A DNA stretch of 64,000 nt from Acholoe squamosa (lineage: Eukaryota > Annelida > Polychaeta > Phyllodocida > Polynoidae): NCBI GenBank assembly GCA_949317995.1, contig OX439036.1, forward strand, positions 110,463,669-110,527,668, in the 5' to 3' direction. Positions 6,101 through 59,025 of this stretch are shown one piece after another. A program made the translations under genes and the position numbers. The notes under the pieces were generated by a model, which searched no databases, was not told the DNA's origin, and saw only the letters and a list, made by a program, of their open reading frames with translations. Numbering within the stretch: position 1 is the first letter of the stretch; every line of letters starts with the position of its first letter.

Positions 6101-9100
6101 AAAACAATAGAATAAGGTAGCTAAATTGTCCGAATGGTCACTAACATCCATCTGATAACTTTTGACGATCAAAATTGACCATATATGGCCTGGATCCCTG
6201 TATTTCCTAAAATCAAGATGGCCGACACATGTGGAAAACAATAGAATTAGATAGTTCAGGTGTCCCAATGGTCACTAACATCCATCTGATAACTTTTGAC
6301 GATCAAAATTGACCATATATGGCCTGGATCCCTGTGTTTCCTAAAATCAAGATGGCCGACACATATGGAAAACAATAGAATTAGGAAGCTAAATTGTCCG
6401 AATGGTCACTAACATCGATACCTTTTGACGATCAAAATTGACCATATATGGCCTGGATCCCTGTGTTTCCTAAAACCAAGATGGCCGACACATGTGGAAA
6501 ACAATAGATTTAGGTAGTCCAGCTGTCTCAACAGTCACTAACATCCATCTGATAACTTTTGACGATCGAAATTGACCATATATAGCCTGGATCCCTGTGT
6601 TTCCTAAAATCAAGATGGCCGACACATATGGAAAACAATAGAATTAGGTAGCCAAGGTGTCCGAATGGTCACTAACATCCATCTGATACCTTTTGATGTT
6701 CAAAACTGTCCATATATGGCCTGGATCCCTCTGTTTCCTAAAACCAAGATGGCCGACACATATGGAAAACAATAGAATTAGGAAGCTAAATTGTCCGAAT
6801 GGTCACTAACATCGATACCTTTTGACGATCAAAATTGACCATATATGGCCTGGATCCCTGTGTTTCCTAAAATCAAGATGGCCGACACATGTGGAAAACA
6901 ATAGATTTAGATAGTCCAGCTGTCTCAACGGTCACTAACATCCATCTGATAACTTTTGACGATCAAAATTGACCATATATGGCCTGGATCCCTCTGTTTC
7001 CTAAAACCAAGATGGCCGACACATATGGAAAACAATAGAATTAGGTAGCTAAATTGTCCGAATGGTCACTAACATCGATACCTTTTGACGATCGAAATTG
7101 ATCATATATGGCCTGGATCCCTGTGTTTCCTAAAACCAAGATGGCCGACACATATGGAAAACAATAGAATTAGGTAGCTAAGGTGTCCTAATGGTCACTA
7201 ACATCCATCTGATAACTTTTGATGTTCAAAACTGACCATATATGACCTGGATCCCTGTGTTTCCTAAAACCAAGATGGCCGACACATATGGAAAACAATA
7301 GATTTAGGTAGTCCAGCTGTCTCAAAGGTCACTAACATCCATCTGATAACTTTTGACGATCAAAATTGACCATATATGGCCTGGATCCCTGTGTTTCCTA
7401 AAACCAAGATGGCCGACATATATGGAAAACAATAGAATCAGGTAGTTGAGGTGTCCCAATGGTCACTAACATCCATCTGATAATTTTCGAAGATCGAAAT
7501 TGACCATATATCTTCTGGATCCCTGTGTTTCCTGAAACCAAGATGGCCGACACATATGGAAAACAGTAGATTTATGTAGTTCAGCAGTCTGAATGGTCAC
7601 TAACATCCATCTGATAACTTTTGACGATCAAAATTGACCATATATGGCCTGGATCCCTCTGTTTCCTAAAACCAAGATGGCCGACACATATGGAAAACAA
7701 TAGAATTAGGTAGCTAAATTGTCCGAATGGTCACTAACATCGATACCTTTTGACGATCGAAATTGATCATATATGGCCTGGATCCCTGTGTTTCCTAAAA
7801 CCAAGATGGCCGACACATATGGAAAACAATAGAATTAGGTAGCTAAGGTGTCCTAATGGTCACTAACATCCATCTGATAACTTTTGATGTTCAAAACTGA
7901 CCATATATGACCTGGATCCCTGTGTTTCCTAAAACCAAGATGGCCGACACATATGGAAAACAATAGATTTAGGTAGTCCAGCTGTCTCAAAGGTCACTAA
8001 CATCCATCTGATAACTTTTGACGATCAAAATTGACCATATATGGCCTGGATCCCTGTGTTTCCGAAAACCAAGATGGCCGACATATATGGAAAACAATAG
8101 AATCAGGTAGTTGAGGTGTCCCAATGGTCACTAACATCCATCTGATAATTTTCGAAGATCGAAATTGACCATATATCTTCTGGATCCCTGTGTTTCCTGA
8201 AACCAAGATGGCCGACACATATGGAAAACAGTAGATTTATGTAGTTCAGCAGTCTGAATGGTCACTAACATCCATCTGATAACTTCTGAAGGTAAAAATT
8301 GACCATATATGGCCTGGATCCCTGTGTTTCCTAAAACCAAGATGGCCAACACATGTGGAAAAAAATAGACTTAGGTAGTCCAGCTGTCTCAATGGTCACT
8401 AACACCCATCTGATAACTTTTGACGATCAAAATTTACCATATATGGCCTGGATCCCTGTGTTTCCTAAAACCAGGATGGCCGACCTATATGGAAAACAAT
8501 AGAATTAGGTAGCTAAGGTGTCCCAATGGTCACTAACATCCATCTGATAACTTTTGATGTTCAAAACTGACCATATATGGCCTGGATCCCTGTGTTTCCT
8601 AAAACCAAGATGGCTGACACATGTGGGAAACAATAGATTTAGGTAGTCCAGCTATCTCAATGGTCACTAACATCTATCTGATAACTTTTGACGATCAAAA
8701 TTGACCATATATGGCCTGGATCCCTGTATTTCCTAAAACCAAGATGGCTGACACATGTGGAAAACAATAGAATTAGATAGTTCAGGTGTCCCAATGGTCA
8801 CTAACATCCATCTGATAACTTTTGACGATCAAAATTGACCATATATGGCCTGGATCCCTCTGTTTCCTAAAATCAAGATGGCCGACACATATGGAAAACA
8901 ATAGAATTAGGAAGCTAAATTGTCCGAATGGTCACTAACATCGATACCTTTTGACGATCAAAATTGACCATATATGGCCTGGATCCCTGTGTTTCCTAAA
9001 ACCAAGATGGCCGACACATATGGAAAACAATAGAATTAGGTAGCTAAATTGTCCGAATGGTCACTAACATCCATCTGATAACTTTTGACGATCAAAATTG

Positions 9101-12100
9101 ACCATATATGGCCTGGATCCCTGTATTTCCTAAAATCAAGATGGCCGACACATGTGGAAAACAATAGAATTAGATAGTTCAGGTGTCCCAATGGTCACTA
9201 ACATCCATCTGATAACTTTTGACGATCAAAATTGACCATATATGGCCTGGATCCCTGTGTTTCCTAAAATCAAGATGGCCGACACATATGGAAAACAATA
9301 GAATTAGGAAGCTAAATTGTCCGAATGGTCACTAACATCGATACCTTTTGACGATCGAAATTGATCATATATGGCCTGGATCCCTGTGTTTCCTAAAACC
9401 AAGATGGCCGACACATATGGAAAACAATAGAATTAGGTAGCTAAGGTGTCCTAATGGTCACTAACATCCATCTGATAACTTTTGATGTTCAAAACTGACC
9501 ATATATGACCTGGATCCCTGTGTTTCCTAAAACCAAGATGGCCGACATATATGGAAAACAATAGAATCAGGTAGTTGAGGTGTCCCAATGGTCACTAACA
9601 TCCATCTGATAATTTTCGAAGATCGAAATTGACCATATATCTTCTGGATCCCTGTGTTTCCTGAAACCAAGATGGCCGACACATATGGAAAACAGTAGAT
9701 TTATGTAGTTCAGCAGTCTGAATGGTCACTAACATCCATCTGATAACTTTTGACGATCAAAATTGACCATATATGGCCTGGATCCCTCTGTTTCCTAAAA
9801 CCAAGATGGCCGACACATATGGAAAACAATAGAATTAGGTAGCTAAATTGTCCAAATGGTCACTAACATCGATACCTTTTGACGATCGAAATTGATCATA
9901 TATGGCCTGGATCCCTGTGTTTCCTAAAACCAAGATGGCCGACACATATGGAAAACAATAGAATTAGGTAGCTAAGGTGTCCTAATGGTCACTAACATCC
10001 ATCTGATAACTTTTGATGTTCAAAACTGACCATATATGACCTGGATCCCTGTGTTTCCTAAAACCAAGATGGCCGACACATATGGAAAACAATAGATTTA
10101 GGTAGTCCAGCTGTCTCAAAGGTCACTAACATCCATCTGATAACTTTTGACGATCAAAATTGACCATATATGGCCTGGATCCCTGTGTTTCCTAAAACCA
10201 AGATGGCCGACATATATGGAAAACAATAGAATCAGGTAGTTGAGGTGTCCCAATGGTCACTAACATCCATCTGATAATTTTCGAAGATCGAAATTGACCA
10301 TATATCTTCTGGATCCCTGTGTTTCCTGAAACCAAGACGGCCGACACATATGGAAAACAGTAGATTTATGTAGTTCAGCAGTCTGAATGGTCACTAACAT
10401 CCATCTGATAACTTTTGAAGGTAAAAATTGACCATATATGGCCTGGATCCCTGTGTTTCCTAAAACCAAGATGGCCAACACATGTGGAAAAAAATAGACT
10501 TAGGTAGTCCAGCTGTCTCAATGGTCACTAACACCCATCTGATAACTTTTGACGATCAAAATTTACCATATATGGCCTGGATCCCTGTGTTTCCTAAAAC
10601 CAGGATGGCCGACCTATATGGAAAACAATAGAATTAGGTAGCTAAGGTGTCCCAATGGTCACTAACATCCATCTGATAACTTTTGATGTTCAAAACTGAC
10701 CATATATGGCCTGGATCCCTGTGTTTCCTAAAACCAAGATGGCTGACACATGTGGGAAACAATAGATTTAGGTAGTCCAGCTATCTCAATGGTCACTAAC
10801 ATCTATCTGATAACTTTTGACGATCAAAATTGACCATATATGGCCTGGATCCCTGTATTTCCTAAAACCAAGATGGCTGACACATGTGGAAAACAATAGA
10901 ATTAGATAGTTCAGGTGTCCCAATGGTCACTAACATCCATCTGATAACTTTTGACGATCAAAATTGACCATATATGGCCTGGATCCCTCTGTTTCCTAAA
11001 ATCAAGATGGCCGACACATATGGAAAACAATAGAATTAGGAAGCTAAATTGTCCGAATGGTCACTAACATCGATACCTTTTGACGATCAAAATTGACCAT
11101 ATATGGCCTGGATCCCTGTGTTTCCTAAAACCAAGATGGCCGACACATATGGAAAACAATAGAATTAGGTAGCTAAATTGTCCGAATGGTCACTAACATC
11201 CATCTGATAACTTTTGACGATCAAAATTGACCATATATGGCCTGGATCCCTGTATTTCCTAAAATCAAGATGGCCGACACATGTGGAAAACAATAGAATT
11301 AGATAGTTCAGGTGTCCCAATGGTCACTAACATCCATCTGATAACTTTTGACGATCAAAATTGACCATATATGGCCTGGATCCCTGTGTTTCCTAAAATC
11401 AAGATGGCCGACACATATGGAAAACAATAGAATTAGGAAGCTAAATTGTCCGAATGGTCACTAACATCGATACCTTTTGACGATCAAAATTGACCATAAT
11501 GGCCTGGATCCCTGTGTTTCCTAAAACCAAGATGGCCGACACATGTGGAAAACAATAGATTTAGGTAGTCCAGCTGTCTCAACAGTCACTAACATCCATC
11601 TGATAACTTTTGACGATCGAAATTGACCATATATGGCCTGGATCCCTGTGTTTCCTAAAATCAAGATGGCTGACACATATGGAAAACAATAGAATTAGGT
11701 AGCCAAGGTATCCCAATGGTCATTAACATCCATCTGATACCTTTTGATGTTCAAAACTGACCATATATGGCCTGGATCCCTCTGTTTCCTAAAACCAAGA
11801 TGGCCGACACATATGGAAAACAATAGAATAAGGAGCTAAATTGTCCGAATGGTCACTAACATCGATACCTTTTGACGATCAAAATTGACCATATATGGCC
11901 TGGATCCCTGTGTTTCCTAAAACCAAGATGGCCGACACATGTGGAAAACAATAGATTTAGATAGTCCAGCTGTCTCAACAGTCACTAACATCAATCTGAT
12001 AACTTTTGACGATCAAAATTGACCATATATGGCCTGGATCCCTCTGTTTCCTAAAATCAAGATGGCCGACACATATGGAAAACAAAAGAATTAGGTAGCT

Positions 12101-15100
12101 AAATTGTCCGAATGGTCACTAACATCGATACCTTTTGACGATCGAAATTGATCATATATGGCCTGGATCCCTGTGTTTCCTAAAACCAAGATGGCCGACA
12201 CATTTGGAAAACAATAGATTTAGGTAGTCCAGCTGTCTCAACGGTCACTAACATCCATCTGATAACTTTTGACGATCAAAATTGACCATATATGGCCTGG
12301 ATCCCTCTGTTTCCTAAAACCAAGATGGCCGACACATATGGAAAACAATAGAATTAGGTAGCTAAATTGTCCGAATGGTCACTAACATCGATACCTTTTG
12401 ACGATCGAAATTGATCATATATGGCCTGGATCCCTGTGTTTCCTAAAACCAAGATGGCCGACACATATGGAAAACAATAGAATTAGGTAGCTAAGGTGTC
12501 CTAATGGTCACTAACATCCATCTGATAACTTTTGATGTTCAAAACTGACCATATATGACCTGGATCCCTGTGTTTCCTAAAACCAAGATGGCCGACACAT
12601 ATGGAAAACAATAGATTTAGGTAGTCCAGCTGTCTCAAAGGTCACTAACATCCATCTGATAACTTTTGACGATCAAAATTGACCATATATGGCCTGGATC
12701 CCTGTGTTTCCTAAAACCAAGATGGCCGACATATATGGAAAACAATAGAATCAGGTAGTTGAGGTGTCCCAATGGTCACTAACATCCATCTGATAATTTT
12801 CGAAGATCGAAATTGACCATATATCTTCTGGATCCCTGTGTTTCCTGAAACCAAGATGGCCGACACATATGGAAAACAGTAGATTTATGTAGTTCAGCAG
12901 TCTGAATGGTCACTAACATCCATCTGATAACTTTTGAAGGTAAAAATTGACCATATATGGCCTGGATCCCTGTGTTTCCTAAAACCAAGATGGCCAACAC
13001 ATGTGGAAAAAAATAGACTTAGGTAGTCCAGCTGTCTCAATGGTCACTAACACCCATCTGATAACTTTTGACGATCAAAATTTACCATATATGGCCTGGA
13101 TCCCTGTGTTTCCTAAAACCAGGATGGCCGACCTATATGGAAAACAATAGAATTAGGTAGCTAAGGTGTCCCAATGGTCACTAACATCCATCTGATAACT
13201 TTTGATGTTCAAAACTGACCATATATGGCCTGGATCCCTGTGTTTCCTAAAACCAAGATGGCTGACACATGTGGGAAACAATAGATTTAGGTAGTCCAGC
13301 TATCTCAATGGTCACTAACATCTATCTGATAACTTTTGACGATCAAAATTGACCATATATGGCCTGGATCCCTGTATTTCCTAAAACCAAGATGGCTGAC
13401 ACATGTGGAAAACAATAGAATTAGATAGTTCAGGTGTCCCAATGGTCACTAACATCCATCTGATAACTTTTGACGATCAAAATTGACCATATATGGCCTG
13501 GATCCCTCTGTTTCCTAAAATCAAGATGGCCGACACATATGGAAAACAATAGAATTAGGAAGCTAAATTGTCCGAATGGTCACTAACATCGATACCTTTT
13601 GACGATCAAAATTGACCATATATGGCCTGGATCCCTGTGTTTCCTAAAACCAAGATGGCCGACACATATGGAAAACAATAGAATTAGGTAGCTAAATTGT
13701 CCGAATGGTCACTAACATCCATCTGATAACTTTTGACGATCAAAATTGACCATATATGGCCTGGATCCCTGTATTTCCTAAAATCAAGATGGCCGACACA
13801 TGTGGAAAACAATAGAATTAGATAGTTCAGGTGTCCCAATGGTCACTAACATCCATCTGATAACTTTTGACGATCAAAATTGACCATATATGGCCTGGAT
13901 CCCTGTGTTTCCTAAAATCAAGATGGCCGACACATATGGAAAACAATAGAATTAGGAAGCTAAATTGTCCGAATGGTCACTAACATCGATACCTTTTGAC
14001 GATCGAAATTGATCATATATGGCCTGGATCCCTGTGTTTCCTAAAACCAAGATGGCCGACACATATGGAAAACAATAGAATTAGGTAGCTAAGGTGTCCT
14101 AATGGTCACTAACATCCATCTGATAACTTTTGATGTTCAAAACTGACCATATATGACCTGGATCCCTGTGTTTCCTAAAACCAAGATGGCCGACACATAT
14201 GGAAAACAATAGATTTAGGTAGTCCAGCTGTCTCAAAGGTCACTAACATCCATCTGATAACTTTTGACGATCAAAATTGACCATATATGGCCTGGATCCC
14301 TGTGTTTCCTAAAACCAAGATGGCCGACATATATGGAAAACAATAGAATCAGGTAGTTGAGGTGTCCCAATGGTCACTAACATCCATCTGATAATTTTCG
14401 AAGATCGAAATTGACCATATATCTTCTGGATCCCTGTGTTTCCTGAAACCAAGATGGCCGACACATATGGAAAACAGTAGATTTATGTAGTTCAGCAGTC
14501 TGAATGGTCACTAACATCCATCTGATAACTTTTGAAGGTAAAAATTGACCATATATGGCCTGGATCCCTGTGTTTCCTAAAACCAAGATGGCCAACACAT
14601 GTGGAAAAAAATAGACTTAGGTAGTCCAGCTGTCTCAATGGTCACTAACACCCATCTGATAACTTTTGACGATCAAAATTTACCATATATGGCCTGGATC
14701 CCTGTGTTTCCTAAAACCAGGATGGCCGACCTATATGGAAAACAATAGAATTAGGTAGCTAAGGTGTCCCAATGGTCACTAACATCCATCTGATAACTTT
14801 TGATGTTCAAAACTGACCATATATGGCCTGGATCCCTGTGTTTCCTAAAACCAAGATGGCTGACACATGTGGGAAACAATAGATTTAGGTAGTCCAGCTA
14901 TCTCAATGGTCACTAACATCTATCTGATAACTTTTGACGATCAAAATTGACCATATATGGCCTGGATCCCTGTATTTCCTAAAACCAAGATGGCTGACAC
15001 ATGTGGAAAACAATAGAATTAGATAGTTCAGGTGTCCCAATGGTCACTAACATCCATCTGATAACTTTTGACGATCAAAATTGACCATATATGGCCTGGA

Positions 15101-18100
15101 TCCCTCTGTTTCCTAAAATCAAGATGGCCGACACATATGGAAAACAATAGAATTAGGAAGCTAAATTGTCCGAATGGTCACTAACATCGATACCTTTTGA
15201 CGATCAAAATTGACCATATATGGCCTGGATCCCTGTGTTTCCTAAAACCAAGATGGCCGACACATATGGAAAACAATAGAATTAGGTAGCTAAATTGTCC
15301 GAATGGTCACTAACATCCATCTGATAACTTTTGACGATCAAAATTGACCATATATGGCCTGGATCCCTGTATTTCCTAAAATCAAGATGGCCGACACATG
15401 TGGAAAACAATAGAATTAGATAGTTCAGGTGTCCCAATGGTCACTAACATCCATCTGATAACTTTTGACGATCAAAATTGACCATATATGGCCTGGATCC
15501 CTGTGTTTCCTAAAATCAAGATGGCCGACACATATGGAAAACAATAGAATTAGGAAGCTAAATTGTCCGAATGGTCACTAACATCGATACCTTTTGACGA
15601 TCGAAATTGATCATATATGGCCTGGATCCCTGTGTTTCCTAAAACCAAGATGGCCGACACATATGGAAAACAATAGAATTAGGTAGCTAAGGTGTCCTAA
15701 TGGTCACTAACATCCATCTGATAACTTTTGATGTTCAAAACTGACCATATATGACCTGGATCCCTGTGTTTCCTAAAACCAAGATGGCCGACATATATGG
15801 AAAACAATAGAATCAGGTAGTTGAGGTGTCCCAATGGTCACTAACATCCATCTGATAATTTTCGAAGATCGAAATTGACCATATATCTTCTGGATCCCTG
15901 TGTTTCCTGAAACCAAGATGGCCGACACATATGGAAAACAGTAGATTTATGTAGTTCAGCAGTCTGAATGGTCACTAACATCCATCTGATAACTTTTGAC
16001 GATCAAAATTGACCATATATGGCCTGGATCCCTCTGTTTCCTAAAACCAAGATGGCCGACACATATGGAAAACAATAGAATTAGGTTGCTAAATTGTCCG
16101 AATGGTCACTAACATCGATACCTTTTGACGATCGAAATTGATCATATATGGCCTGGATCCCTGTGTTTCCTAAAACCAAGATGGCCGACACATATGGAAA
16201 ACAATAGATTTAGGTAGTCCAGCTGTCTCAAAGGTCACTAACATCCATCTGATAACTTTTGACGATCAAAATTGACCATATATGGCCTGGATCCCTGTGT
16301 TTCCTAAAACCAAGATGGCCGACATATATGGAAAACAATAGAATCAGGTAGTTGAGGTGTCCCAATGGTCACTAACATCCATCTGATAATTTTCGAAGAT
16401 CGAAATTGACCATATATCTTCTGGATCCCTGTGTTTCCTGAAACCAAGACGGCCGACACATATGGAAAACAGTAGATTTATGTAGTTCAGCAGTCTGAAT
16501 GGTCACTAACATCCATCTGATAACTTTTGAAGGTAAAAATTGACCATATATGGCCTGGATCCCTGTGTTTCCTAAAACCAAGATGGCCAACACATGTGGA
16601 AAAAAATAGACTTAGGTAGTCCAGCTGTCTCAATGGTCACTAACACCCATCTGATAACTTTTGACGATCAAAATTTACCATATATGGCCTGGATCCCTGT
16701 GTTTCCTAAAACCAGGATGGCCGACCTATATGGAAAACAATAGAATTAGGTAGCTAAGGTGTCCCAATGGTCACTAACATCCATCTGATAACTTTTGATG
16801 TTCAAAACTGACCATATATGGCCTGGATCCCTGTGTTTCCTAAAACCAAGATGGCTGACACATGTGGGAAACAATAGATTTAGGTAGTCCAGCTATCTCA
16901 ATGGTCACTAACATCTATCTGATAACTTTTGACGATCAAAATTGACCATATATGGCCTGGATCCCTGTATTTCCTAAAACCAAGATGGCTGACACATGTG
17001 GAAAACAATAGAATTAGATAGTTCAGGTGTCCCAATGGTCACTAACATCCATCTGATAACTTTTGACGATCAAAATTGACCATATATGGCCTGGATCCCT
17101 CTGTTTCCTAAAATCAAGATGGCCGACACATATGGAAAACAATAGAATTAGGAAGCTAAATTGTCCGAATGGTCACTAACATCGATACCTTTTGACGATC
17201 AAAATTGACCATATATGGCCTGGATCCCTGTGTTTCCTAAAACCAAGATGGCCGACACATATGGAAAACAATAGAATTAGGTAGCTAAATTGTCCGAATG
17301 GTCACTAACATCCATCTGATAACTTTTGACGATCAAAATTGACCATATATGGCCTGGATCCCTGTATTTCCTAAAATCAAGATGGCCGACACATGTGGAA
17401 AACAATAGAATTAGATAGTTCAGGTGTCCCAATGGTCACTAACATCCATCTGATAACTTTTGACGATCAAAATTGACCATATATGGCCTGGATCCCTGTG
17501 TTTCCTAAAATCAAGATGGCCGACACATATGGAAAACAATAGAATTAGGAAGCTAAATTGTCCGAATGGTCACTAACATCGATACCTTTTGACGATCAAA
17601 ATTGACCATAATGGCCTGGATCCCTGTGTTTCCTAAAACCAAGATGGCCGACACATGTGGAAAACAATAGATTTAGGTAGTCCAGCTGTCTCAACAGTCA
17701 CTAACATCCATCTGATAACTTTTGACGATCGAAATTGACCATATATGGCCTGGATCCCTGTGTTTCCTAAAATCAAGATGGCTGACACATATGGAAAACA
17801 ATAGAATTAGGTAGCCAAGGTATCCCAATGGTCACTAACATCCATCTGATACCTTTTGATGTTCAAAACTGACCATATATGGCCTGGATCCCTCTGTTTC
17901 CTAAAACCAAGATGGCCGACACATATGGAAAACAATAGAATAAGGAAGCTAAATTGTCCGAATGGTCACTAACATCGATACCTTTTGACGATCAAAATTG
18001 ACCATATATGGCCTGGATCCCTGTGTTTCCTAAAACCAAGATGGCCGACACATGTGGAAAACAATAGATTTAGATAGTCCAGCTGTCTCAACAGTCACTA

Positions 18101-21100
18101 ACATCAATCTGATAACTTTTGACGATCAAAATTGACCATATATGGCCTGGATCCCTCTGTTTCCTAAAATCAAGATGGCCGACACATATGGAAAACAATA
18201 GAATTAGGTAGCTAAATTGTCCGAATGGTCACTAACATCGATACCTTTTGACGATCGAAATTGATCATATATGGCCTGGATCCCTGTGTTTCCTAAAACC
18301 AAGATGGCCGACACATTTGGAAAACAATAGATTTAGGTAGTCCAGCTGTCTCAACGGTCACTAACATCCATCTGATAACTTTTGACGATCAAAATTGACC
18401 ATATATGGCCTGGATCCCTCTGTTTCCTAAAACCAAGATGGCCGACACATATGGAAAACAATAGAATTAGGTAGCTAAATTGTCCGAATGGTCACTAACA
18501 TCGATACCTTTTGACGATCGAAATTGATCATATATGGCCTGGATCCCTGTGTTTCCTAAAACCAAGATGGCCGACACATATGGAAAACAATAGAATTAGG
18601 TAGCTAAGGTGTCCTAATGGTCACTAACATCCATCTGATAACTTTTGATGTTCAAAACTGACCATATATGACCTGGATCCCTGTGTTTCCTAAAACCAAG
18701 ATGGCCGACACATATGGAAAACAATAGATTTAGGTAGTCCAGCTGTCTCAAAGGTCACTAACATCCATCTGATAACTTTTGACGATCAAAATTGACCATA
18801 TATGGCCTGGATCCCTGTGTTTCCTAAAACCAAGATGGCCGACATATATGGAAAACAATAGAATCAGGTAGTTGAGGTGTCCCAATGGTCACTAACATCC
18901 ATCTGATAATTTTCGAAGATCGAAATTGACCATATATCTTCTGGATCCCTGTGTTTCCTGAAACCAAGATGGCCGACACACATGGAAAACAGTAGATTTA
19001 TGTAGTTCAGCAGTCTGAATGGTCACTAACATCCATCTGATAACTTTTGAAGGTAAAAATTGACCATATATGGCCTGGATCCCTGTGTTTCCTAAAACCA
19101 AGATGGCCAACACATGTGGAAAAAAATACTTAGGTAGTCCAGCTGTCTCAATGGTCACTAACACCCATCTGATAACTTTTGACGATCAAAATTTACCATA
19201 TATGGCCTGGATCCCTGTGTTTCCTAAAACCAGGATGGCCGACCTATATGGAAAACAATAGAATTAGGTAGCTAAGGTGTCCCAATGGTCACTAACATCC
19301 ATCTGATAACTTTTGATGTTCAAAACTGACCATATATGGCCTGGATCCCTGTGTTTCCTAAAACCAAGATGGCCGACACATGTGGAAAACAATAGATTTA
19401 GGTAGTCCAGCTGTCTCAACAGTCACTAACATCCATCTGATAACTTTTGACGATCGAAATTGACCATATATGGCCTGGATCCCTGTGTTTCCTAAAATCA
19501 AGATGGCTGACACATATGGAAAACAATAGAATTAGGTAGCCAAGGTGTCCCAATGGTCACTAACATCCATCTGATACCTTTTGATGTTCAAAACTGACCA
19601 CATATGGCCTGGATCCCTCTGTTTCCTAAAACCAAGATGGCCGACACATATGGAAAACAATAGAATTAGGAAGCTAAATTGTCCGAATGGTCACTAACAT
19701 CGATACCTTTTGACGATCAAAATTGACCATATATGGCCTGGATCCCTGTGTTTCCTAAAACCAAGATGGCCGACACATGTGGAAAACAATAGATTTAGAT
19801 AGTCCAGCTGTCTCAACGGTCACTAACATCTATCTGATAACTTTTGACGATCAAAATTGACCATATATGGCCTGGATCCCTCTGTTTCCTAAAACCAAGA
19901 TAGCCGACAAATATGGAAAACAATAGAATTAGGTAGCTAAGGTGTCCTAATGGTCACTAACGTCCATCTGATAACTTTTGATGTTCAAAACTGACCATAT
20001 ATGACCTGGATCCCTGTGTTTCCTAAAACCAAGATGGCCGACACATATGGAAAACAATAGATTTAGGTAGTCCAGCTGTCTCAAAGGTCACTAACATCCA
20101 TCTGATAACTATTGACGATCAAAATTGACCATATATGGCCTGGATCCCTGTGTTTCCTAAAACCAAGATGGCCGACATATATGGAAAACAATAGAATCAG
20201 GTAGTTGAGGTGTCCCAATGGTCACTAACATCCATCTGATAATTTTCGAAGATCGAAATTGACCATATATCTTCTGGATCCCTGTGTTTCCTGAAACCAA
20301 GATGGCCGACACACATGGAAAACAGTAGATTTATGTAGTTCAGCAGTCTGAATGGTCACTAACATCCATCTGATAACTTTTGACGATCAAAATTGACCAT
20401 ATATGGCCTGGATCCCTCTGTTTCCTAAAGCCAAGATAGCCGACACATATGGAAAACAATAGAATTAGGTAGCTAAATTGTCCGAATGGTCACTAACATC
20501 GATACCTTTTGACAATCGAAATTGATCATATATGGCCTGGATCCCTGTGTTTCCTAAAACCAAGATGGCCGACACATATGGAAAACAATAGAATTAGGTA
20601 GCTAAGGTGTCCTAATGGTCACTAACATCCATCTGATAACTTTTGATGTTCAAAACTGACCATATATGACCTGGATCCCTGTGTTTCCTAAAACCAAGAT
20701 GGCCGACACATATGGAAAACAATAGATTTAGGTAGTCCAGCTGTCTCAAAGGTCACTAACATCCATCTGATAACTTTTGACGATCAAAATTGACCATATA
20801 TGGCCTAGATCTCTGTGTTTCCTAAAACCAAGATGGCCGACATATATGGAAAACAATAGAATCAGGTAGTTGAGGTGTCCCAATGGTCACTAACATCCAT
20901 CTGATAATTTTCGAAGATCGAAATTGACCATATATCTTCTGGATCCCTGTGTTTCCTGAAACCAAGATGGCCGACACATATGGAAAACAATAGAATTGGG
21001 AAGCTAAATTGTCCGAATGGTCACTAACATCGATACCTTTTGACGATCAAAATTGACCATATATGGCCTGGATCCCTGTGTTTCCTAAAACCAAGATGGC

Positions 21101-24100
21101 CGACACATGTGGAAAACAATAGATTTAGGTAGTCCAGCTGTCTCAACAGTCACTAACATCCATCTGATAACTTTTGACGATCAAAATTGACCATATATGG
21201 CCTGGATCCCTGTGTTTCCTAAAATCAAGATGGCCGACACATATGGAAAACAATAGAATTAGGTAGCCAAGGTGTCCCAATGGTCACTAACATCCATCTG
21301 ATACCTTTTGATGTTCAAAACTGACCATATATGGCCTGGATCCCTCTGTTTCCTAAAACCAAGATGGCCGACACATATGGAAAACAATAGAATTAGGTAG
21401 CTAAATTGTCCGAATGGTCACTAACATCGATACCTTTTGACGATCGAAATTGATCATATATGGCCTGGATCCCTGTGTTTTCTAAAACCAAGATGGCCGA
21501 CACATATGGAAAACAATAGAATTAGGTAGCTAATGTGTCCTAATGGTCACTAACATCCATCTGATAACTTTTGATGTTCAAAACTGACCATATATGACCT
21601 GGATCCCTGTTTCCTAAAACCAAGATGGCCGACACATATGGAAAACAATAGATTTAGGTAGTCCAGCTGTCTCAAAGGTCACTAACATCCATCTGATAAC
21701 TTTTGACGATCAAAATTGACCATATATGGCCTGGATCCCTGTGTTTCCTAAAACCAAGATGGCCGACATATATGGAAAACAATAGAATCAGGTAGTTGAG
21801 GTGTCCCAATGGTCACTAACATCCATCTGATAATTTTCGAAAATCGAAATTGACCATATATCTTCTGGATCCCTGTGTTTCCTGAAACCAAGATGGCCGA
21901 CACACATGGAAAATAGTAGATTTATGTAGTTCAGCAGTCTGAATGGTCACTAACATCCATCTGATAACTTTTGAAGGTAAAAATTGAACATGATATGACC
22001 TCGATCCCTGTTTCTCAAAACCAAGATGGCCGACACATATGGAAAATAATAGAATTAGGTAGCTAAGGTGTTCCTATGGTCACTAATATCCATCTGATAA
22101 CTTTTGACGATCAAAATTGACCATATATGTCCTGGATCCCTGTGTTTCCTAAAACCAAGATGGCCGACCCATATGGAAAACAATAGAATTAGGTAGTCCA
22201 GCTGTCTCAATGGTCACTAACATCCATCTGATACCTTTTGACGATCGAAATTGATCATATATGGCCTGGATCCCTGTGTTTCCTAAAACCAAGATGGCCG
22301 ACACATATGGAAAACAATAGAATTAGGTGGTTGAGGTGTCCCAATAGTCACTAACATCCATCTGATAACTTTTGATGTTCAAATCTGACAATATATGACT
22401 TGGATCCCTGTGTTTTCTAAAACCAAGATGGCTGACACACATGGAAAACATTAGATTAAGGTAGTTCAGCATTCTCAATGGTCACTAACATCCATCTGAT
22501 AACTTTTGAAGATCAAAATTGACCATATATGACCTGGATCCCTGTGTTTCCTAAAACCAAGATGGCCGACACACATGGAAAACAATAAAATTAGGTAGTT
22601 GAGATGCCCCGATGCTCACTAAGACACTCTTAAAACACTCTGTGTTCATTAAGTGTTAATACATGGGATCCTTGATTATTTCTGTGCCCTCCACCACCAC
22701 ACTTCAGCCACCACTATCCACCACCACCTGTGTCCTATGGCTCTCGCAGAGGGCACTACCAGCACTACACTCATACCTAGTGCCATATATAGACACTAGT
22801 GACTGCCACAATGTCCCTGAACTTGACACTCTTCAGCCATATGTTTCAGACTAAAAAAATAAAACCTATACTTGAAGAGAGAGGAGTATTTCCAGTTCCC
22901 ATCAGGTGGAAGAGGGGCATGGTGGGAGAGAAATATAGTAAACTACCACTATGCTTTGCTACTTCCTATACTACTTCCTGTATGGTGGTTCCCTGAGGGT
23001 TTATACCTAAGGGCACCAGAGTATACCAGCAGCAGTGAGAAGTGCAGTGCTGGTGGTGCTGGCAAGGTCCCCAGGCTGGGGCAGTGGTTCTTACAAGGCC
23101 ACCACCAAAGGGAGAGGAGTGGGGAGTGCTTAGTCCTGGAACAAAGGGCCAGGATTCACCACCAGCACCACCAATACCACCACCACCACACTTCTCCCAA
23201 CTCTAACACACATATTTTAATCCAGGTATAGGCATACTGAATACTGTAGCTATGGGACAGAATTATACATGGAGAGCGAGGAAGCACCACTATGAGAGCT
23301 TGTATTTAAGAATGGGTCCCCTCCTATAGCCGTTCGTTCGTAAGAACGAACGGCAATAAGTACTGTTATGATATATAAAACTGAGTTATTTCTTTTGGTA
23401 AAAATACAAAAAAGTGAATACATCTTGACTTTATTTAACCTTTTTGAATTTTTTTCATACTCTGGCTACCGGTAGCTTACAAAAGTAAGAAGTTATTTGA
23501 TTTTAGCCATGGGGTGCAGGTAGGAAATTAGGTCAGGCAACATGATGGATAATTTGGTACTTGATCAGAGGCAAAATAATTAAGACACACTGACTCCCTC
23601 AGAAAAATGCTATGACATTTCTCAAAGGATCTGGGGAAATCATGAGGGTCAACCAGAAATGTAGTGACTTCTTTGTGGTACTTACATCTGCCTTATCCTC
23701 TTCGTCGTCGTCGGACTCGGCATGGTTGGGGAAGTTGGTGAAGGTGTGGGTGTGGCTCGGCACGGCTCCCTCATCTTTCTCTCCCGGACTCCCACTGTGC
23801 GGGATGTCTTGGAATGACAGACTGTCCAACGATGGACTTTCCTGTGTAGGAACCAAATCACATGTACAATGTACAATGTCAATGAATCTCAAGTACAAGA
23901 TTTCAGGAAAATGCACAGTACCGGTATGACTATTATCATATACTGGTAGCAAAGTCCCCTAATAGCCTATAGGAAGTGGTCATACACTTAATCCTTTTCT
24001 GTAACGTGCAGACTGATAAGAGCTGATAAGTTGCCCAAAGAAAGGGTAATTTTTTTTCTGAAGCAGCCCGCTTTTGGATTTCACAGTGTGATATTTTTTT

Positions 24101-36699: not shown

Positions 36700-37927
36700 A
36701 CCACATGTGGGTCCAACAACTTACGTTATTCCAGTTTACAGTATTGAAGACATTTTTTTCCCAATGTTCCAATTGAAAATTTCTGTTTTAAGTCCTGAGA
36801 AGGTTTTGTTTGGTAAAATTACTCAATCATCTTCAATGTTAACAAAAAGACTTGTTTTTTTACGTTTCATGTTTTTAAATTCCATTAGTTTATATTGTAG
36901 ATTCTATAAGAAAACACAGGTAGCTTATGTGACTCTAGCCAATATCTGTGACAAAATCAAAATCCTGTCTGCGTACAGAAAGCAACCGGTGACTCTTATA
37001 ATTGAGGACTTAACCTCTGAAGGCGTCAGAAAGGCCTGTCCGGTAGAAGTGTTTTACTCTACAAGTTGCAAGTTTGCTCTGGGTATATCAAAATATGCAA
37101 GTACTACTCTCGCACTAGGCGAGTTAGGGAGATTTCCTATTGAATCCAAAATAATCGTACTGAACATTCTATATTGGCTGAGGCTTGAGCATGGATCGAA
37201 AAACCCTATTCTAAATGAGGCCTTCTCTACCATGAAGAGTGAAAACCACCAATGGCTTAAAGATATCCAATACCTCTTGTTTAAAATCGGTTGTAAGAAC
37301 GTCTGGCTCGATCCTTATGTTTGGTCAAAGTCCTCACTCAAAAACAATATAAAGAGAAGGTTAAATGATGCACATATTCAGAAGTACAACCAGTACATTG
37401 ATAACCCAGAGAATACTAGCAAGTGTAGAATTATCAAGATGTGTAAAGATGATCTCAATGACATTTATGAAGAGCGTGAATACCTAACGCATACAGAATC
37501 ACCAAAAATTAGAACCATTATTGCTAAACTCCGGACTGACAATAACTGTACACTTGACAGCCTGTCAAGAAGATATAGAGGAAAGAAACCTGTCAATTCT
37601 AAGTGCACATTCTGTAATGCTGTGCAAGATGTCAATCATGTCTTCTTACATTGTAACATGCCCGAGATGAGAAACGCACGGTCAGTGTTTGAAACAAAAT
37701 ACCTCAAGTTCGTTGATTACTATAAAAGACACGATGACACTAGGAAACTTTCTCAAATACTAGCAGTGGCCCCATATTGCAAATCATCTAAAAGGCCAGG
37801 GGCTGTGAACTGTATATACTCATATATAAAATCTGTCTACAACATTGTAAATGAAAACCTGGTGCTGACATAAGTGTACCTGTACATTAGTCAATAAAGC
37901 CATCTTGAATCTTGAATCTTGAATCTA
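36700..37927 (+). mobile_element. 5'-truncated non-LTR (LINE) retrotransposon, reverse-transcriptase C-terminal region
   Basis: A 388-codon ORF (to TAA at 37873) has LINE-type C-terminal landmarks. KFALGISKYASTTLALGELG corresponds to the post-thumb 'LGV.k.aSn..v.gELGR' block, and CTFCNAVQDVNHVFLHC is a CX2C-X7-H-X4-C zinc-knuckle-like motif. The catalytic RT domain (YXDD) is absent, so this is a dead 5'-truncated copy. The 3' end has AATAAA (37893) and a (TTGAATC)n tail, as in CR1/L2-like lineages. The left boundary is approximate. It lies just after the AEN stop codon in the same orientation. Confidence 0.85.
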
Positions 37928-40628: not shown

Positions 40629-43600
40629 CTGTTGTGTACAAAATGACAAATCATATTAGCTGACTTCTATATCAAATACACTGTCCATCCAACAGTCAAG
40701 TTTACCATAATAATATCTCAAGGTGGAGTGTTTGAAAATAGGCATTACTAATGACTATTTTGACTATTTTCAGACACTCCACCTTGAGATATTATCATGG
40801 TAAGCTAATGATTAGCTGAAGAAACATTTATTGAAACACTTAAATATATCCACAAAAAATATAGGCATCAAAAACAAGCTATTTTCTAATATGATCAAGG
40901 AAAGGGGTGTTGAAAGTTGCTGATGATACAAATTGTGAAATGTTTGCGTAATATTACCGCGATATCCTATTTACAATCCACATCTTATATGTAAGGATTG
41001 AGTCCTACGGCGCCTTATAGAGCCACCCAATGTTACTGTAATCTCCCATGTATAAGGCACACCCCACATATAAGACGCACCTAGAGGTTTTACAATATGG
41101 TCAAACATATCAAAGAATCATAACTTTTGTTCTACGATATGGACTTCTAAAATTCAAAAAGCTATTTGTAGCTAGCCCCCCCCAGACCCCCTATCATGTC
41201 CTATTTAATATGACTTATGGGGAGGGTAACATATTGTAGGGGTCGGCGAAAACGTTTAGGGAAACCGGGTTTCGAACCCAGGACCTCTCAGTCTTCAGAC
41301 GATTGCTCTACCACTGAGCTACTTCCCCGTACAACGTTTTTCTGCCTTCCACCCACGCCTGGATCGGTGTGATACCGATAGGGAACATGTGACTACCCGG
41401 TGACCCGCCCCTGCGGGTCGGCCACCCGGGCACGAGGACTCACATAGTCATGTTCCCCTACACAGCCCCCAACCAGCTTCGACCACCGAATTAACCAGCA
41501 CTGAGTCACACACAGTGTTTGTTTGTCCTGCTCCCAGGACAACTGTGGGCGCCACCTGTTTCCAAGTCTCCCAGTGCTAGCAGGTCGAAGCGCTTGCCGT
41601 ATCACACCAACCCAGGAACCGAGTTCTGTAGCCCCCCCTCACGCGGGTCAGGACTACTCGGTTTCCCTACCACTGTAGGGGTCGGTGAAAATGTTTAGGG
41701 AAACCGGGTTTCGAACCCGGGACCTCTCAGTCTTCAGACGATTGCTCTACCACTGAGCTACTTCCCCGTACAACGTTTTTCTGCCTTCCACCCACGCCTG
41801 GATCGGTGTGATACCGATAGGGAACATGTGACTACCCGGTGACCCGCTCCTGCGGGTCGGCCACCCGGGCACGAGGACTCACATAGTCATGTTCCCCTAC
41901 AATATCAAAATAAATCTATGAGACGTGTCTTATACACAAGAGATAACGGGGTGCGCCTGTTAAGTTACGATCTCTATAGAACAGAACTAAAGCCTATAAC
42001 ATATGACTATCTGTGCCTTATAGCATGCTCCTTTATAATAACTTAGGGTGCGCCTTATAAGTGAGGTGCACCTTGTAAGCTGCTATATGACGTGTGCATT
42101 CATGCATCATGACGACCAGTTGGCATGATGCATTAATGCAGTACCGGCCTTTAAAGGGCTAAGAATGTGCTTACATTTCGAACTTCTCCGACTCCAAGGA
42201 AAGCGCGGCCTAGTGTCTGGTGACTGACCCACCATCTTGGTTTGAGGGAGACTGACTTCTTGGCAGCCTGGATGGATGGAAGCACCTCTCCTACCTGCAT
42301 GTACGCCTGGCAATGGAACAAGGGAGAGCTGTTAATTGATCTTTAAATGTTTGTTTTTTAAGGTCCAACAGACTTCTAATAGATTTCCTAATTTCTTGTA
42401 CAAATCTGATATTTTCTTCAAAGAAAAAAACTGTTATTCATCGAAAATATGGAGAGTGATTTCTTGGTGTGGCCATATCCTTATTTGATGAAAGTCACTG
42501 AGGCCAAAAATCCCTGAAATGTTCAATAAGAATCCATCTAAATATTGATTTTGTATATGAATGTATAGGGCTTTGGGACTTAAAAATACCTGAAATCAGG
42601 GGAATTCCTGAAGACTTTCATCCCTGTAATATTTGGTATGAATAAAGAAGTGTGTAATCACCTGTGCCTTCATCTCATAGACTGCTTCATCGCCCGGGTT
42701 ATAGACGATCGCCTCGTCCCACTTCTGTAATGCCTCCCAGTACCTGAAATAAGACGGAAATACTGATTTATTTCATATTGAGAATGAGAGTGCCCGTGGT
42801 AAAGCAGAGGGAGAGCCATTCCCCATTCACCAGAGTGCCTTGCCTTTGCAAATCTAAGGTGGCCTGTGCCTTATAGAATAATCCCAGTGACAAAATGTGT
42901 CTGAAAGGCGGGGTACTTTTACTATTCCAACCTAGCGTGTTGTAGGTGGCGCCAGCCAGTCTAGCTGAAGCTAGTTATCAGCATGTACCTTTCTGCTGGT
43001 TGTAGGGTACAGTTATGTAATACTGGTGGGAATCCACTCTGTCCCACCCTACACACAAAATATTATTATGAATCATTAAGAAGCACATAGTAGTTAACAG
43101 TATAATTACAAGTTCAAGGTATGCTTATAGTATACGGCACATGGCTATTGTATTATTGACCAATGGGAGGCATCCCTGGCATATACTGCGGAGTCAGGGG
43201 CTGAAGGTGTTAGTCATAGTGCCGTCGGGGTCTAATGGCGGCCCCCAGCTGATAATGGCTATGTGAGCTATAGCCTATCACTCATCACACCTCCACGTGT
43301 GGAGTCTTCACAGCTACAGGTGTGGAGGCTCACCCCATGTACAGAGTGGATTCTGACCACTGAAGCTCCAAATGTTGCGAGAATGCATGTTAATTAGGCC
43401 TTAGCTGGTGGCTGCAGTGCAGTCACACCTGCATGCCCAGCTTGTATGGTACTAGCACCCACTGGTAAACATGCAAAGTCGGTATAGAACACTACTAACC
43501 CTTCAGAAATCAGCTCTAACTGCACCTTAAGGAATGGTCATTTTTTAACAACAGTGGAGGGCTGGTGGATATTAGGGGAGGGGCGAAATATTTCAGACCC

Positions 43601-55307: not shown

Positions 55308-56839
55308 TAGGGAAAACATGCCAAACTTTTATTTTGGATTTACCCGGATAATTTTACATCACCGGAAAGCTGGCATCTTGAGTAATTTAATGGTGTTTAA
55401 ATTGTCTTTATAATGGTACTAGAACAGAAGTTATGAGGGATTGAATGTGGAATTTCTAAAGTATTTTCTGTCAGTGGATTTCCAGCTAGTGTGGGTCTCG
55501 TGAATCGTGAATCTAAGAAAGTCCTCGTAGTGCAGACTCGCGAGCGTCACTGTCAGAGCAAATAGCCTTGATCCAATTTTTATAAACTAATAGTTTTGGC
55601 AAAAGTAGTTCTACGGCGTAGGGACAGTATCCTTAGCCCTTTAATTGTTTCTAGTTCCATTATAGTTTAGAGTATGTAATCATAGTTTGTACGGCCTTAC
55701 TTATCTGGATCGAGATTAATGCTAGATCACGTGACTAGATAAGCTGTACTACGAAAGTCCTCGTAGTGCAGACTCGCGAGCGTCACTGTCAGAGCAAATA
55801 GCCTTGATCCAATATTTATAAACTAATAGTTTTGGCAAAAGTAGTTCTACGGCGTAGGGACAGTATCCTTAGCCCTTTAATTGTTTCTAGTTCCATTATA
55901 GTTAAGAGTATGTAATCATAGTTTGTACGGCCTTACTTATCTGGATCGAGATTAATGCTAGATCACGTGACTAGATAAGCTGTACCACGTGACTATGTGG
56001 ACCTTCTGATGTCGCACGCTAGCCTGTGGGTCTTATCAGTCCCTGCCCACTGTGCACAGGCAGCACTGGTTCTCACACATTTCAGACCTTGCTTTACTGA
56101 ATCTCAAATTAAAATTGATTGAATGATCATAGAGGGTAACCAATTACATCACTGTAAGCACAACAGTTTGGGGATTAATAGGCTATATTTTGCATTAAAG
56201 GGAACTAAGATAAGTATTATAAATCATGTTGGAAAGTCTAAATTTTCTAAATGACAGTGTGATAAGCAGACCTGAAATTCTTGGATTTTTTACTCAACTC
56301 TCCTATACTCTTTAGCTTTGGGCTAATTTGGGCTAATAGATAATAAATAGCTGATTAAAGATCCTAAAAGTACACACTTTTGTGGTTATCCCATATAAGT
56401 TTAAAAAAGTTACACAAATATTTAGTTTTGATATTTTCAGGGTTAAGTCAAAACTCTTCCGAAATATGTACAATCTGTTCAGATATTTCATTCTTTCTCC
56501 CTCTATGGTAACTGATAATGTCTTAAGCTTTCAATAGAGGTATCAAATGTAAAAATTGACCAAGAATTAACAAAAATATCAGCATTTTATATTTCAAGGT
56601 TTTCTAGAAATTTTTGTCTGCGCACACCAATACCCCTTGAGATAAGATATTTAATCAATGACTGGATCTAGAGTAAAATGACCCACAAATTCTGATTCCT
56701 TGGTTAGTTTTACCCTTGGTACATGAAAATAGTTAATGTTGACAGTGGAAAAGAGCCCTAAAATAGAAAATCATATTGATTGATTTACTATAGTGACAGA
56801 TAGGGACTCGTGGGAGTGGGTGCAGGGGTGTTATTCCTA
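55308..56839 (-). mobile_element. TAGG-family DNA element copy C
   Basis: Starts TAGGGAAAACATGCC and ends GGTGTTATTCCTA. Flanks are CTCAATA on both sides (55301-55307 and 56840-56846). In reverse orientation it aligns to 24183-26088 and 28978-30756. It carries a nested insertion at 55499-56025. Confidence 0.85.
55499..56025. mobile_element. Nested element with internal tandem duplication, 8-bp target duplication
   Basis: Flanked by GTGGGTCT at 55491-55498 and 56026-56033. Inside, a block of about 233 bp beginning AAAGTCCTCGTAGTGCAGAC is present twice (from about 55519 and 55753). It is related in reverse orientation to 26222-26509. The 8-bp duplication fits hAT-like mobilisation. Confidence 0.75.
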
Positions 56840-56846
56840 CTCAATA

Positions 56847-56994
56847 ACTTATACTAGCAGGGTTGCCAACTCTCACGCAATCGGCGTGACACTCACGCAT
56901 TTAGACCCTTTCTCACGCTCGCACACATGTCTAGTGCATTCTCACGCATTCCTGACATTCTGAGCTTTCCAACGGTGAAAGAATTTTTCAAATA
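56847..56994. repeat. 'TTGCCAACTCTCACGC' repeat fragment
   Basis: Contains GGGTTGCCAACTCTCACGCA and repeated TCACGCATT. This type of string recurs in many animal dispersed repeats. It is short and its boundary is uncertain. Confidence 0.35.
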
Positions 56995-57607
56995 TTCTGG
57001 CTCGATCCTTATGTTTGGTCAAAGTCCTCACTCAAAAACAATATAAAGAGAAGGTTAAATGATGCACATATTCAGAAATACAACCAGTACATTGATAACC
57101 CAGAGAATACTAGCAAGTGTAGAATTATCAAGATGTGTAAAGATGATCTCAATGACATTTATGAAGAGCGTGAATACCTAACGCATACAGAATCACCTAA
57201 AATTAGAACCATTATTGCTAAACTCAGGACTGACAATAACTGTACACTTGACAGCCTGTCAAGAAGATATAGAGGAAAGAAACCTGTCAATTCTAAGTGC
57301 ACATTCTGTAATGCTGTGCAAGATGTCAATCATGTCTTCTTACATTGTAACATGCCTGAGATGAGAAACGCACGGTCAGTGTTTGAAACAAAATACCTCA
57401 AGTTCGTTGATTACTATAAAAGACACGATGACACTAGGAAACTTTCTCAAATACTAGCAGTGGCCCCATATTGCAAATCATCTAAAAGGCCAGGGGCTGT
57501 GAACTGTATATACTCATATATAAAATCTGTCTACAACATTGTAAATGAAAACCTGGTGCTGACATAAGTGTACCTGTACATTAGTCAATAAAGCCATCTT
57601 GAATCTA
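56995..57607 (+). mobile_element. Second 5'-truncated LINE copy
   Basis: From CTGGCTCGATCCTTATGTTT onward it is nearly identical to 37303-37910, with a handful of substitutions in about 600 bp. It includes the zinc-knuckle-like CTFCNAVQDVNHVFLHC, the stop codon, AATAAA and the TTGAATC tail. Different truncation points and almost no divergence imply recent activity of a full-length source elsewhere. 57608-57969 downstream has no recognised feature. Confidence 0.88.
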
Positions 57608-57969
57608 TTCCAATTTAGAACAGAAGTTATGAAGTCATTTTCAAGAGTCACCAGAATGCATGTTTTGATAGAAGAATTTTCAAAATTTCCCCCTAGGAAT
57701 TTTCCCCAGGTATTGAATTGTGAAATCATCTCCCCAAGTTGCACAAAACTGCTGGGTGTGTTGTGGTAGGTACACAAAGGATGAGAGGGAAAGGGAGAAA
57801 GGAGGTTGGACGTCCATGCATGAAGAAACAGCTTTAATAAAATGACAAATCATTGTTGAACTCTGTCTGATTTCCCCACCTGGGAATCCACAGTACTCCA
57901 CTCTCACTCTCGTCATCTTCCCACATGTAGGCTACCACCACTCTCCCACTCACTCACCCTGCCCTCACC

Positions 57970-59025
57970 CCTGGTCCCACCATTCCTCTACCTCAGTCTC
58001 ACCCCTGTTCCTACCATTCCTCTACCTCAGTCTCACCCCTGGTCCCACCATTCCTCTACCTCAGTCTCACCCCTGGTCCCACCATTCCTCTACCTCAGTC
58101 TCACCCCTGTTCCTACCATTCCTCTACCTCAGTCTCACCCCTGTTCCTACCATTCCTCTACCTCAGTCTCACCCCTGTTCCTACCATTCCTCTACCTCAG
58201 TCTCACCCCTGGTCCCACCATTCCTCTACCTCAGTCTCACCCCTGGTCCCACCATTCCTCTACCTCAGTCTCACCCCTGTTCCTACCATTCCTCTACCTC
58301 AGTCTCACCCCTGTTCCTACCATTCCTCTACCTCAGTCTCACCCCTGGTCCCACCATTCCTCTACCTCAGTCTCACCCCTGTTCCTACCATTCCTCTACC
58401 TCAGTCTCACCCCTGGCCCCACCATTCCTCTACCTCAGTCTCACCCCTGGTCCCACCATTCCTCTACCTCAGTCTCACCCCTGGTCCCACCATTCCTCTA
58501 TCTCAGTCTCACCCCTGTTCCTACCATTCCTCTACCTCAGTCTCACCCCTGTTCCTACCATTCCTCTACCTCAGTCTCACCCCTGTTCCCACCATTCCTC
58601 TACCTCAGTCTCACCCCTGTTCCCACCATTCCTCTACCTCAGTCTCACCCCTGTTCCTACCATTCCTCTACCTCAGTCTCACCCCTGTTCCTACCATTCC
58701 TCTACCTCAGTCTCACCCCTGTTCCTACCATTCCTCTACCTCAGTCTCACCCCTGTTCCTACCATTCCTCTACCTCAGTCTCACCCCTGTTCCTACCATT
58801 CCTCTACCTCAGTCTCACCCCTTTTCCCACCATTCCTCTACCTCAGTCTCACCCCTGTTCCCACCATTCCTCTACCTCAGTCTCACCCCTGTTCCTACCA
58901 TTCCTCTACCTCAGTCTCACCCCTGTTCTTACCATTCCTCTACCTCAGTCTCACCCCTGTTCCTACCATTCCTCTACCTCAGTCTCACCCCTGGTCCCAC
59001 CATTCCTCTACCTTCAGTCTCACCC
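57970..59025. repeat. 34-bp minisatellite, about 31 units
   Basis: Unit CTCACCCCTGTTCCTACCAT plus TCCTCTACCTCAGT, with alternating GTTCCTACC and GGTCCCACC variants. It is strongly pyrimidine-rich on the plus strand. 59026-59449 has no recognised feature. Confidence 0.97.

Follow-up and report, generated by a model that had tools for sequence, protein, structure and literature searches.

The window analysed here, a 64,000-nucleotide stretch of the Acholoe squamosa genome (contig OX439036.1), contains at 41235-41901 a 667-bp terminal-repeat retrotransposon in miniature (TRIM) whose two long terminal repeats (LTRs) each harbour a tRNA-like gene, and whose primer-binding site (PBS) is exactly complementary to the 3′ end of that gene plus CCA. 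Judged from sequence, it very probably belongs to a large, many-typed and non-autonomous family of Helenus-like TRIMs in which the LTR would encode a tRNA-like RNA that primes the element's own reverse transcription. The anatomy of the element, its copies in the host genome, the exact complementarity, the covariation of tRNA end and PBS between copies, and a set of junctions resembling primer–cDNA joints are all direct observations. New is the match between the LTR tRNA and the PBS, whilst tRNA-derived sequence in the LTRs of TRIMs, animals included, has already been described under the name Helenus (PMC10886601); a first-pass annotation of this DNA, which held that no comparable animal element is known, thus stands for the former and needs narrowing for the latter.

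Anatomy of the element

The minus strand is the sense strand of the element, which is bounded by direct repeats of 228 nt each (41235-41462 and 41674-41901) that are 98% identical, with 4 substitutions, 3 of which lie, by eye, at CpG/TpG or CpG/CpA sites. Its LTR termini, TGTAGGGG..CCCCTACA, are of the TG..CA type, and a target site duplication (TSD) of ATAT, a polypurine tract (PPT) and a PBS complete the arrangement, bearing out the mini LTR element placed here by the first-pass annotation. With a length below ~1000 bp, two LTRs, no open reading frame (ORF) of at least 110 aa within the 667 bp, a PBS next to the 5′ LTR and a PPT before the 3′ LTR, the features by which TRIMs are recognised are all present. 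The opposite, plus-strand orientation was considered and rejected, as by eye it offers neither PBS nor PPT.

Both ARAGORN and Rfam call a 72-nt tRNA in each LTR on the minus strand (Table 1), the Rfam scores of 54.3 and 57 bits comparing with a gathering score of 29. Each is sense-oriented and lies 22 nt inside the LTR end. The motifs conventionally named the A box and B box of RNA polymerase III (pol III) genes can be read in the sequence as TAGCTCAGTGG and GGTTCGAAACC, in agreement with the earlier annotation. The window tRNAs also carry TAGCTC..TGG and GGTTC, corresponding to the box A (TRGCY..YGG) and box B (GGTTC) by which Helenus is recognised, a correspondence checked in the copies by eye only. 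At the gathering threshold Rfam reports nothing in the window besides the two LTR tRNAs, and hence no 5S rRNA of the kind that marks Cassandra and Ajax. The sense strand of the element contains only two T4 tracts, each starting 5 nt behind a tRNA 3′ end, which is the position expected of a pol III terminator.

The PBS, TGGTAGGGAAACCG, stands one base past the 5′ LTR and 23 nt from the gene end, and is the exact complement (14/14) of CGGTTTCCCTA-CCA, that is, of the 3′ 11 nt of the tRNA with CCA added, just as had been claimed. The match extends to 16/17 with one mismatch; at this length of 17 nt the PBS is the top-scoring place on either strand of the 64-kb window, followed, at 14/17, by the sequences of the two tRNAs themselves.

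Copies in the host genome

A search of the host genome (1.48 Gb, 63 contigs) gave at least 43 matches to the element. As this first look scored 40 candidates out of 2975, the family must be large and the copy counts are lower bounds. A further 39 regions, covering all 42 other matches, were fetched and form, with the window, a set of 40. The first-pass annotation had raised the possibilities that other copies would lack the centre or the PBS match, or that the repeats would prove to be a tandem array of tRNA genes and not LTRs. Neither is what the copies display: all 39 regions have the order LTR-centre-LTR, with matches to both LTR and centre (some LTRs being truncated), the PBS follows the tRNA type, and the repeats behave as LTRs despite two tandem arrays of the form LTR-centre-LTR-centre-LTR (L057, L058) and an additional adjoining LTR of type B at L050.

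Exact 4-bp TSDs flank 31 of the 40 regions, window included, in keeping with the 4-bp TSD of animal Helenus, and the proposed PPT is identical to that of the window or one base off. T4 occurs in the trailer behind the tRNA in 82 of 83 LTRs. None of these 83 LTR tRNAs is followed by CCA, although all 42 PBSs, in copies not picked by any PBS pattern, begin with TGG at offset one; this is counted in favour of self-priming. Outside the host, a 15-mer of the element matched 12 viral contigs of a viral collection, none with longer similarity to the element, and longer element patterns gave zero matches in the viral contigs and in the genome-contig collection searched.

Covariation of the LTR tRNA end and the PBS

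Two types occur in the 40 regions: type A, with tRNA end TTTCCCTA and PBS TAGGGAAA, and type B, with tRNA end TTTCTCCA and PBS TGGAGAAA. When regions are assigned by the LTR type most frequent in them, the 42 PBSs divide into 29 A/A and 7 B/B pairs, 6 with a decayed partner and 0 A/B.

Genome-wide, a first pattern consisting of T-loop, LTR end and TGG, in which complementarity is not required, occurs at 1202 places (625 + 577) and, written backwards, at 1. A second pattern admits any base but G at position five of the 8-nt PBS stretch, and so cannot hold exact A, B, F or G pairs; it occurs at 115 places against 3 for the reversed control. From each, 100 places were listed, these being the heads of the lists and so a non-random sample. 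Among the 100 listed for the first pattern, 88 are exact 8/8 complements of acceptor end and PBS, in four types (TTTCTCCA 56, TGTCTCCA 18, TTTCCCTA 12, TATCTCCA 2), and 61 are exact over 14 nt, compared with a mean of 29.9 and a maximum of 42 for shuffled partners (2000 shuffles). The exact pairs among the 100 listed for the second pattern are TGATCCTA/TAGGATCA (71) and TGTTTCCA/TGGAAACA (3). Pooled, 162 of 200 rows are exact, in six types, with mismatches averaging 0.38 of 8, compared with 2.71 for shuffled partners (minimum 2.15 in 2000 shuffles), and mutual information with the PBS partners reaches 0.75-0.93 bit at tRNA positions 67, 68, 69, 70 and 72. This count of 200 keeps two rows cut at the wrong TACA and three non-element rows, and includes twice the two places (C1:6244106 and C1:26910579) that stand in both lists.

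ARAGORN calls type A Phe(GAA), type B Ser(CGA), types C and G Cys(GCA), type F Ala(TGC) and type D Asp(GTC), with type E unclear. Type D (L077, L107) has a distinct tRNA body, which we take to be tRNA-Gln-like, and its own PBS fitting 14/14; as this body is plainly unlike the others, at least two bodies would appear to have been adopted. As to where the LTR tRNA came from, capture of the primer by read-through, suggested in the first-pass annotation, is unsupported, given the sense orientation of the tRNA and its place 22 nt inside the LTR end; a possible alternative is insertion of a short interspersed element (SINE) into an LTR, as proposed for Helenus in PMC10886601.

G-U pairs occur in the acceptor stem of type A, B and E examples, where by eye the PBS carries the partner of the U instead of repeating the G strand; since it pairs with the U, the PBS looks as though written from the tRNA 3′ end. 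Copying of the primer 3′ end into the PBS during plus-strand synthesis is an established retroviral mechanism.

A tree of the internal regions, built without tRNA and PBS, retained 53 rows out of 75 sequences offered, copies failing a regular expression or with a body <140 nt being dropped, and left 21 of 45 inner branches open. In it, 8 of 17 type B rows fall inside the clade in which the type A rows stand, and the 7 labels need 9 changes, such that LTR-plus-PBS units seem to have moved between bodies. This movement may be a matter of linkage by recombination, and is by itself no evidence of function.

Junctions resembling primer–cDNA joints

Two LTRs met during the search for host tRNAs (L068, L071) run to the tRNA end and continue with CCA, one base and a reverse-complemented LTR end. 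The general pattern, tRNA end-CCA-N-TGTAGRGG, occurs at 33 places, with 0 for the reversed control. Thirty of these were fetched: 24 go on as a perfect match to the reversed LTR end for 12 nt, a complete tRNA is called ahead of the CCA in 18, and 15 go on as inverted arms of at least 100 nt. A purine tract precedes the LTR in 8, which identifies that LTR as a 3′ LTR, and exact 4-bp TSDs surround the whole structure in 3 (AATG at L092, ATCT at L095, CCCT at L101). One example, L077, belongs to type D and combines an LTR and a matching PBS with a CCA joint that lies in the 3′ LTR. The junctions look like joints of primer and cDNA that were made double-stranded and then integrated, as would result from priming by the LTR tRNA at the PBS. 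Together with the genome-wide covariation, they support the proposal of the first-pass annotation that the element encodes the tRNA primer it would use.

In two separate LTR copies (L116, L121), a dispersed repeat (CCGTAA..GCGTATAAGG) starts immediately after the CTA at the tRNA end.

Host tRNAs as possible primers

The comparison with host tRNAs is based on a tRNA-Phe gene ending in GGGTTTCGGCA and a tRNA-Ala(AGC) gene ending in CGGGTTCTCCA, the latter confirmed at L137. The tRNA-Phe pattern occurs at 1 place against 2 in the reversed control, so that its status as a gene comes from ARAGORN alone. The acceptor end of the window tRNAs is unlike that of this host gene; the earlier name tRNA-Phe therefore holds for the anticodon call, GAA, and not for the acceptor end. 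The tRNA-Ala pattern occurs at 1403 places, mostly in a tRNA-derived repeat, and a single tRNA-Ala(AGC) gene is present among the 100 listed. This abundant host repeat, with GCTTTGCATG as its anticodon arm and ..GGTGGTGCTGAGAAACATTTT as its end, is probably a SINE.

Every type fits its own tRNA at 14 of 14 nt. The fits to Phe and Ala(AGC) are, respectively, 10 and 11 for type A, 11 and 13 for types B and C, 10 and 12 for types F and G, 9 and 11 for type E, and 7 and 8 for type D; types A and D are thus poorly served by these two host tRNAs. Searches for host genes ending like types A and D point the same way. The 13 host places at which TTTCCCTA is followed by C, G or T comprise 6 in LTR copies and 7 that are uncalled as tRNA. 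Where TTTCCCTA is followed by A and then a base other than A, 9 of the 10 places are in LTR context by eye and the remaining one, L132, is uncalled, the AA-followed places not having been individually read. As L132 stands outside any element, it was considered as a host tRNA and rejected because it is not called one. The type D end when not before G occurs at 19 places; the 16 fetched comprise 14 LTR copies and 2 chance occurrences, and the others are L077 and 2 in the second element list.

Alternative explanations

It could be argued that a host tRNA uses the PBS and that the LTR tRNA-like sequence is a pol III promoter from the same tRNA family, the match being shared ancestry. This is Helenus as described in PMC10886601, with host-tRNA priming and an LTR tRNA that serves as promoter only. 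It also draws on the PBS of type B, which fits host tRNA-Ala(AGC) at 13/14, and on type F being called tRNA-Ala(TGC) by ARAGORN. Set against it are the six acceptor types, each with an exact PBS of its own, the poor fits of types A and D just given, and the type A- and D-ended places outside the usual trailer, all of which are LTR copies, uncalled sites or chance (copies with the usual trailer were not individually read). As a general account it is therefore improbable. A still weaker candidate, to which we give hardly any credence, is linked inheritance alone, whereby the copies descend from a single matching ancestral pair that later mutated, and present matches are functionless. The 23-nt distance between tRNA end and PBS, and the relatedness of copies of the same type, are what such an account would lead one to expect. 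The five further matching pairs are beyond what linkage can make, and mutation without use would break pairs, as is seen in the decayed minority. Somewhat unlikely, yet a good deal more credible than either, is priming by the element RNA itself, which would end in the 3′ LTR with tRNA-like sequence plus CCA and would prime at the 5′ PBS, either in cis or on another RNA molecule, without need of a separate small primer. Such a variant is compatible with a self-encoded primer. It is favoured by the 8 of 30 junction loci in which a purine tract precedes an LTR that runs into tRNA-CCA, and by L077 and L071, whose junction lies in the 3′ LTR of an LTR-centre-LTR arrangement. As aberrant insertions, though, the junction loci may not reflect the normal route, and a free primer made via T4 termination is equally possible.

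Priming by an LTR-encoded tRNA remains the preferred reading, and several observations weigh against it. PMC10886601 reports that its Helenus families lack complementarity between LTR tRNA and PBS. Of the 200 pooled rows, 38 are inexact, 2 of them cross-type (TTTCTCCA with TGGAAACA, TGTCTCCA with TGGAGATA). Because tRNA end and PBS, at a distance of 23 nt, are transmitted as one linked unit, the 162 exact rows represent few events, the six types implying at least five paired shifts and not 162, and the shuffle test ignores this relatedness of copies. The host comparison comprises one Phe and one Ala(AGC) gene, with Ala(TGC), Ala(CGC) and the full tRNA set outside it, and a host tRNA-Ala(AGC) primer for type B, one of 14 nt off, is hard to exclude. 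With respect to the tRNAs, 1 of 9 example copies (L109, with a type B end) is not called as tRNA, minimum-energy folds of the LTR tRNAs mostly fall short of a full cloverleaf, and the fold of the window tRNA is moderately better than shuffles (z -1.79). No whole tRNA stands before the CCA in 12 of 30 junctions, the scan finds no exact TSD at 27 of 30, and a template switch within the 11 nt in which the tRNA and the PBS complement agree could have produced the junction CCA by copying the TGG of the PBS. Finally, the T4 behind the 5′ LTR tRNA should halt pol III early, and an element RNA therefore needs read-through or another promoter.

Proposed mechanism

From these sequence features we infer transcription, processing, CCA addition, a helper and the act of priming itself. 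Pol III would start at the LTR tRNA-like gene, and a stop at the TTTT just behind it would give a small tRNA-like RNA, trimmed and CCA-tailed in the manner of a tRNA. Read-through, or another promoter, would give the element RNA, terminated by the TTTT in the 3′ LTR. The small RNA with its CCA tail would then anneal to the PBS, 23 nt beyond the end of the gene encoding it, to be extended through U5 and R by the reverse transcriptase of an autonomous LTR element. Plus-strand synthesis would rewrite the primer end into the PBS in every cycle, and it is by this copying back that the PBS is proposed to follow changes in the LTR tRNA.

A more extended version is put forward tentatively, and with rather less than even confidence: one LTR pol III unit may yield both primer and template, the 3′ end of the element RNA may prime as well, the element may no longer depend on host tRNAs, and on five or more occasions the primer gene may have been exchanged or modified, the PBS each time keeping step. 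If true, a single LTR unit for primer and template would free reverse transcription from host tRNAs.

Relation to known elements

By the textbook account, reverse transcription in LTR retrotransposons and retroviruses starts from a borrowed host tRNA or, in the Tf1 type, from the element's own folded 5′ end. In Tf1 it is the mRNA 5′ end that folds onto the PBS, unlike the tRNA-like primer ending in CCA considered here. tRNA-derived SINEs likewise have a tRNA-derived pol III promoter and are non-autonomous, but unlike this element they are without LTRs, PBS, PPT and 4-bp TSD. Cassandra, a plant TRIM, likewise carries a pol III gene in its LTR. This is, however, 5S rRNA and not tRNA, and no primer role for the 5S is mentioned in the accessible text of PMC10886601. 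Ajax, a nemertean TRIM with partial 5S sequence, is similarly a TRIM with a small-RNA promoter in its LTR, but differs in the 5S derivation of this promoter, a PBS for host tRNA-Leu and a 5-bp TSD (PMC10886601). Self-priming LTR retrotransposons of the Tf1 type resemble the system proposed here in drawing their primer from the element itself instead of from the host's tRNAs, and bivalve TRIMs without a clear PBS have also been reported (both PMC6934838).

The closest likeness is to Helenus (PMC10886601), with which the element shares length class, two LTRs, an LTR tRNA-like sequence with A and B boxes, PBS, PPT, 4-bp TSD and tandem arrays; mobilisation by Gypsy is ascribed to animal Helenus. 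The element departs from Helenus as reported by having, in six types, a PBS complementary to the LTR tRNA, although non-complementarity is an observation of the founding paper and not part of the definition (PMC10886601). None of the literature titles and abstracts found describes an LTR retroelement whose LTR tRNA matches its own PBS, in a search that had most subscription journals and preprints outside its reach.

An element-encoded primer that changes together with its PBS would constitute a natural, replicated experiment on primer choice, and the primer/PBS pairs could be used to define what a primer requires in terms of CCA, acceptor end and modifications. Such an element would also test the rule that the primer rewrites the PBS in each cycle, and would provide a way for tRNA-like genes to spread through genomes and confound the annotation of tRNAs.

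Features of the element and other repeats in the window

Table 1. Coordinates of the parts of the TRIM within the window
Feature	Position	Strand	Evidence or remark
5′ LTR, 228 bp, TGTAGGGG...CCCCTACA	41674..41901	minus	repeat comparison; layout shared with 39 further host regions
Internal region, 211 bp, without long ORF	41463..41673	minus	related bodies in host copies
3′ LTR, 228 bp	41235..41462	minus	4 differences from 5′ LTR
tRNA-like gene in 5′ LTR, anticodon GAA; proposed primer gene and pol III promoter	41696..41767	minus	57 bits
tRNA-like gene in 3′ LTR	41257..41328	minus	54.3 bits
A box, TAGCTCAGTGG	41750..41760	minus	read from sequence
B box, GGTTCGAAACC	41707..41717	minus	read from sequence
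TTTT, proposed pol III terminator behind 5′ LTR tRNA	41688..41691	minus	
TTTT behind 3′ LTR tRNA	41249..41252	minus	
PBS	41659..41672	minus	14/14 complementary to LTR tRNA 3′ end plus CCA
Purine-rich tract GGTTGGGGGCTG, proposed PPT, before 3′ LTR	41463..41474	minus	
TSD, ATAT, 4 bp	41231..41234 and 41902..41905		flanks of element

At 40702-40803 are inverted repeat arms of 43 nt, 93% complementary and 16 nt apart, that resemble a miniature inverted-repeat transposable element. Elsewhere, the window contains a satellite of ~20 kb at 2996-22622 (unit 134 bp, ~148 copies), a 236-bp unit in two tandem copies with 98% matches at 55513-55989, and a 34-bp minisatellite of 31 copies at 57964-59025 that has three frames open as repeat protein. 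The stretches 36701-37873 and 56956-57567 are two copies of one sequence, 99% alike over 300 nt, and are probably a non-LTR retrotransposon; a sub-threshold Pfam match to zf-RVT (reverse-transcriptase zinc finger) is absent from the former and present in the latter.
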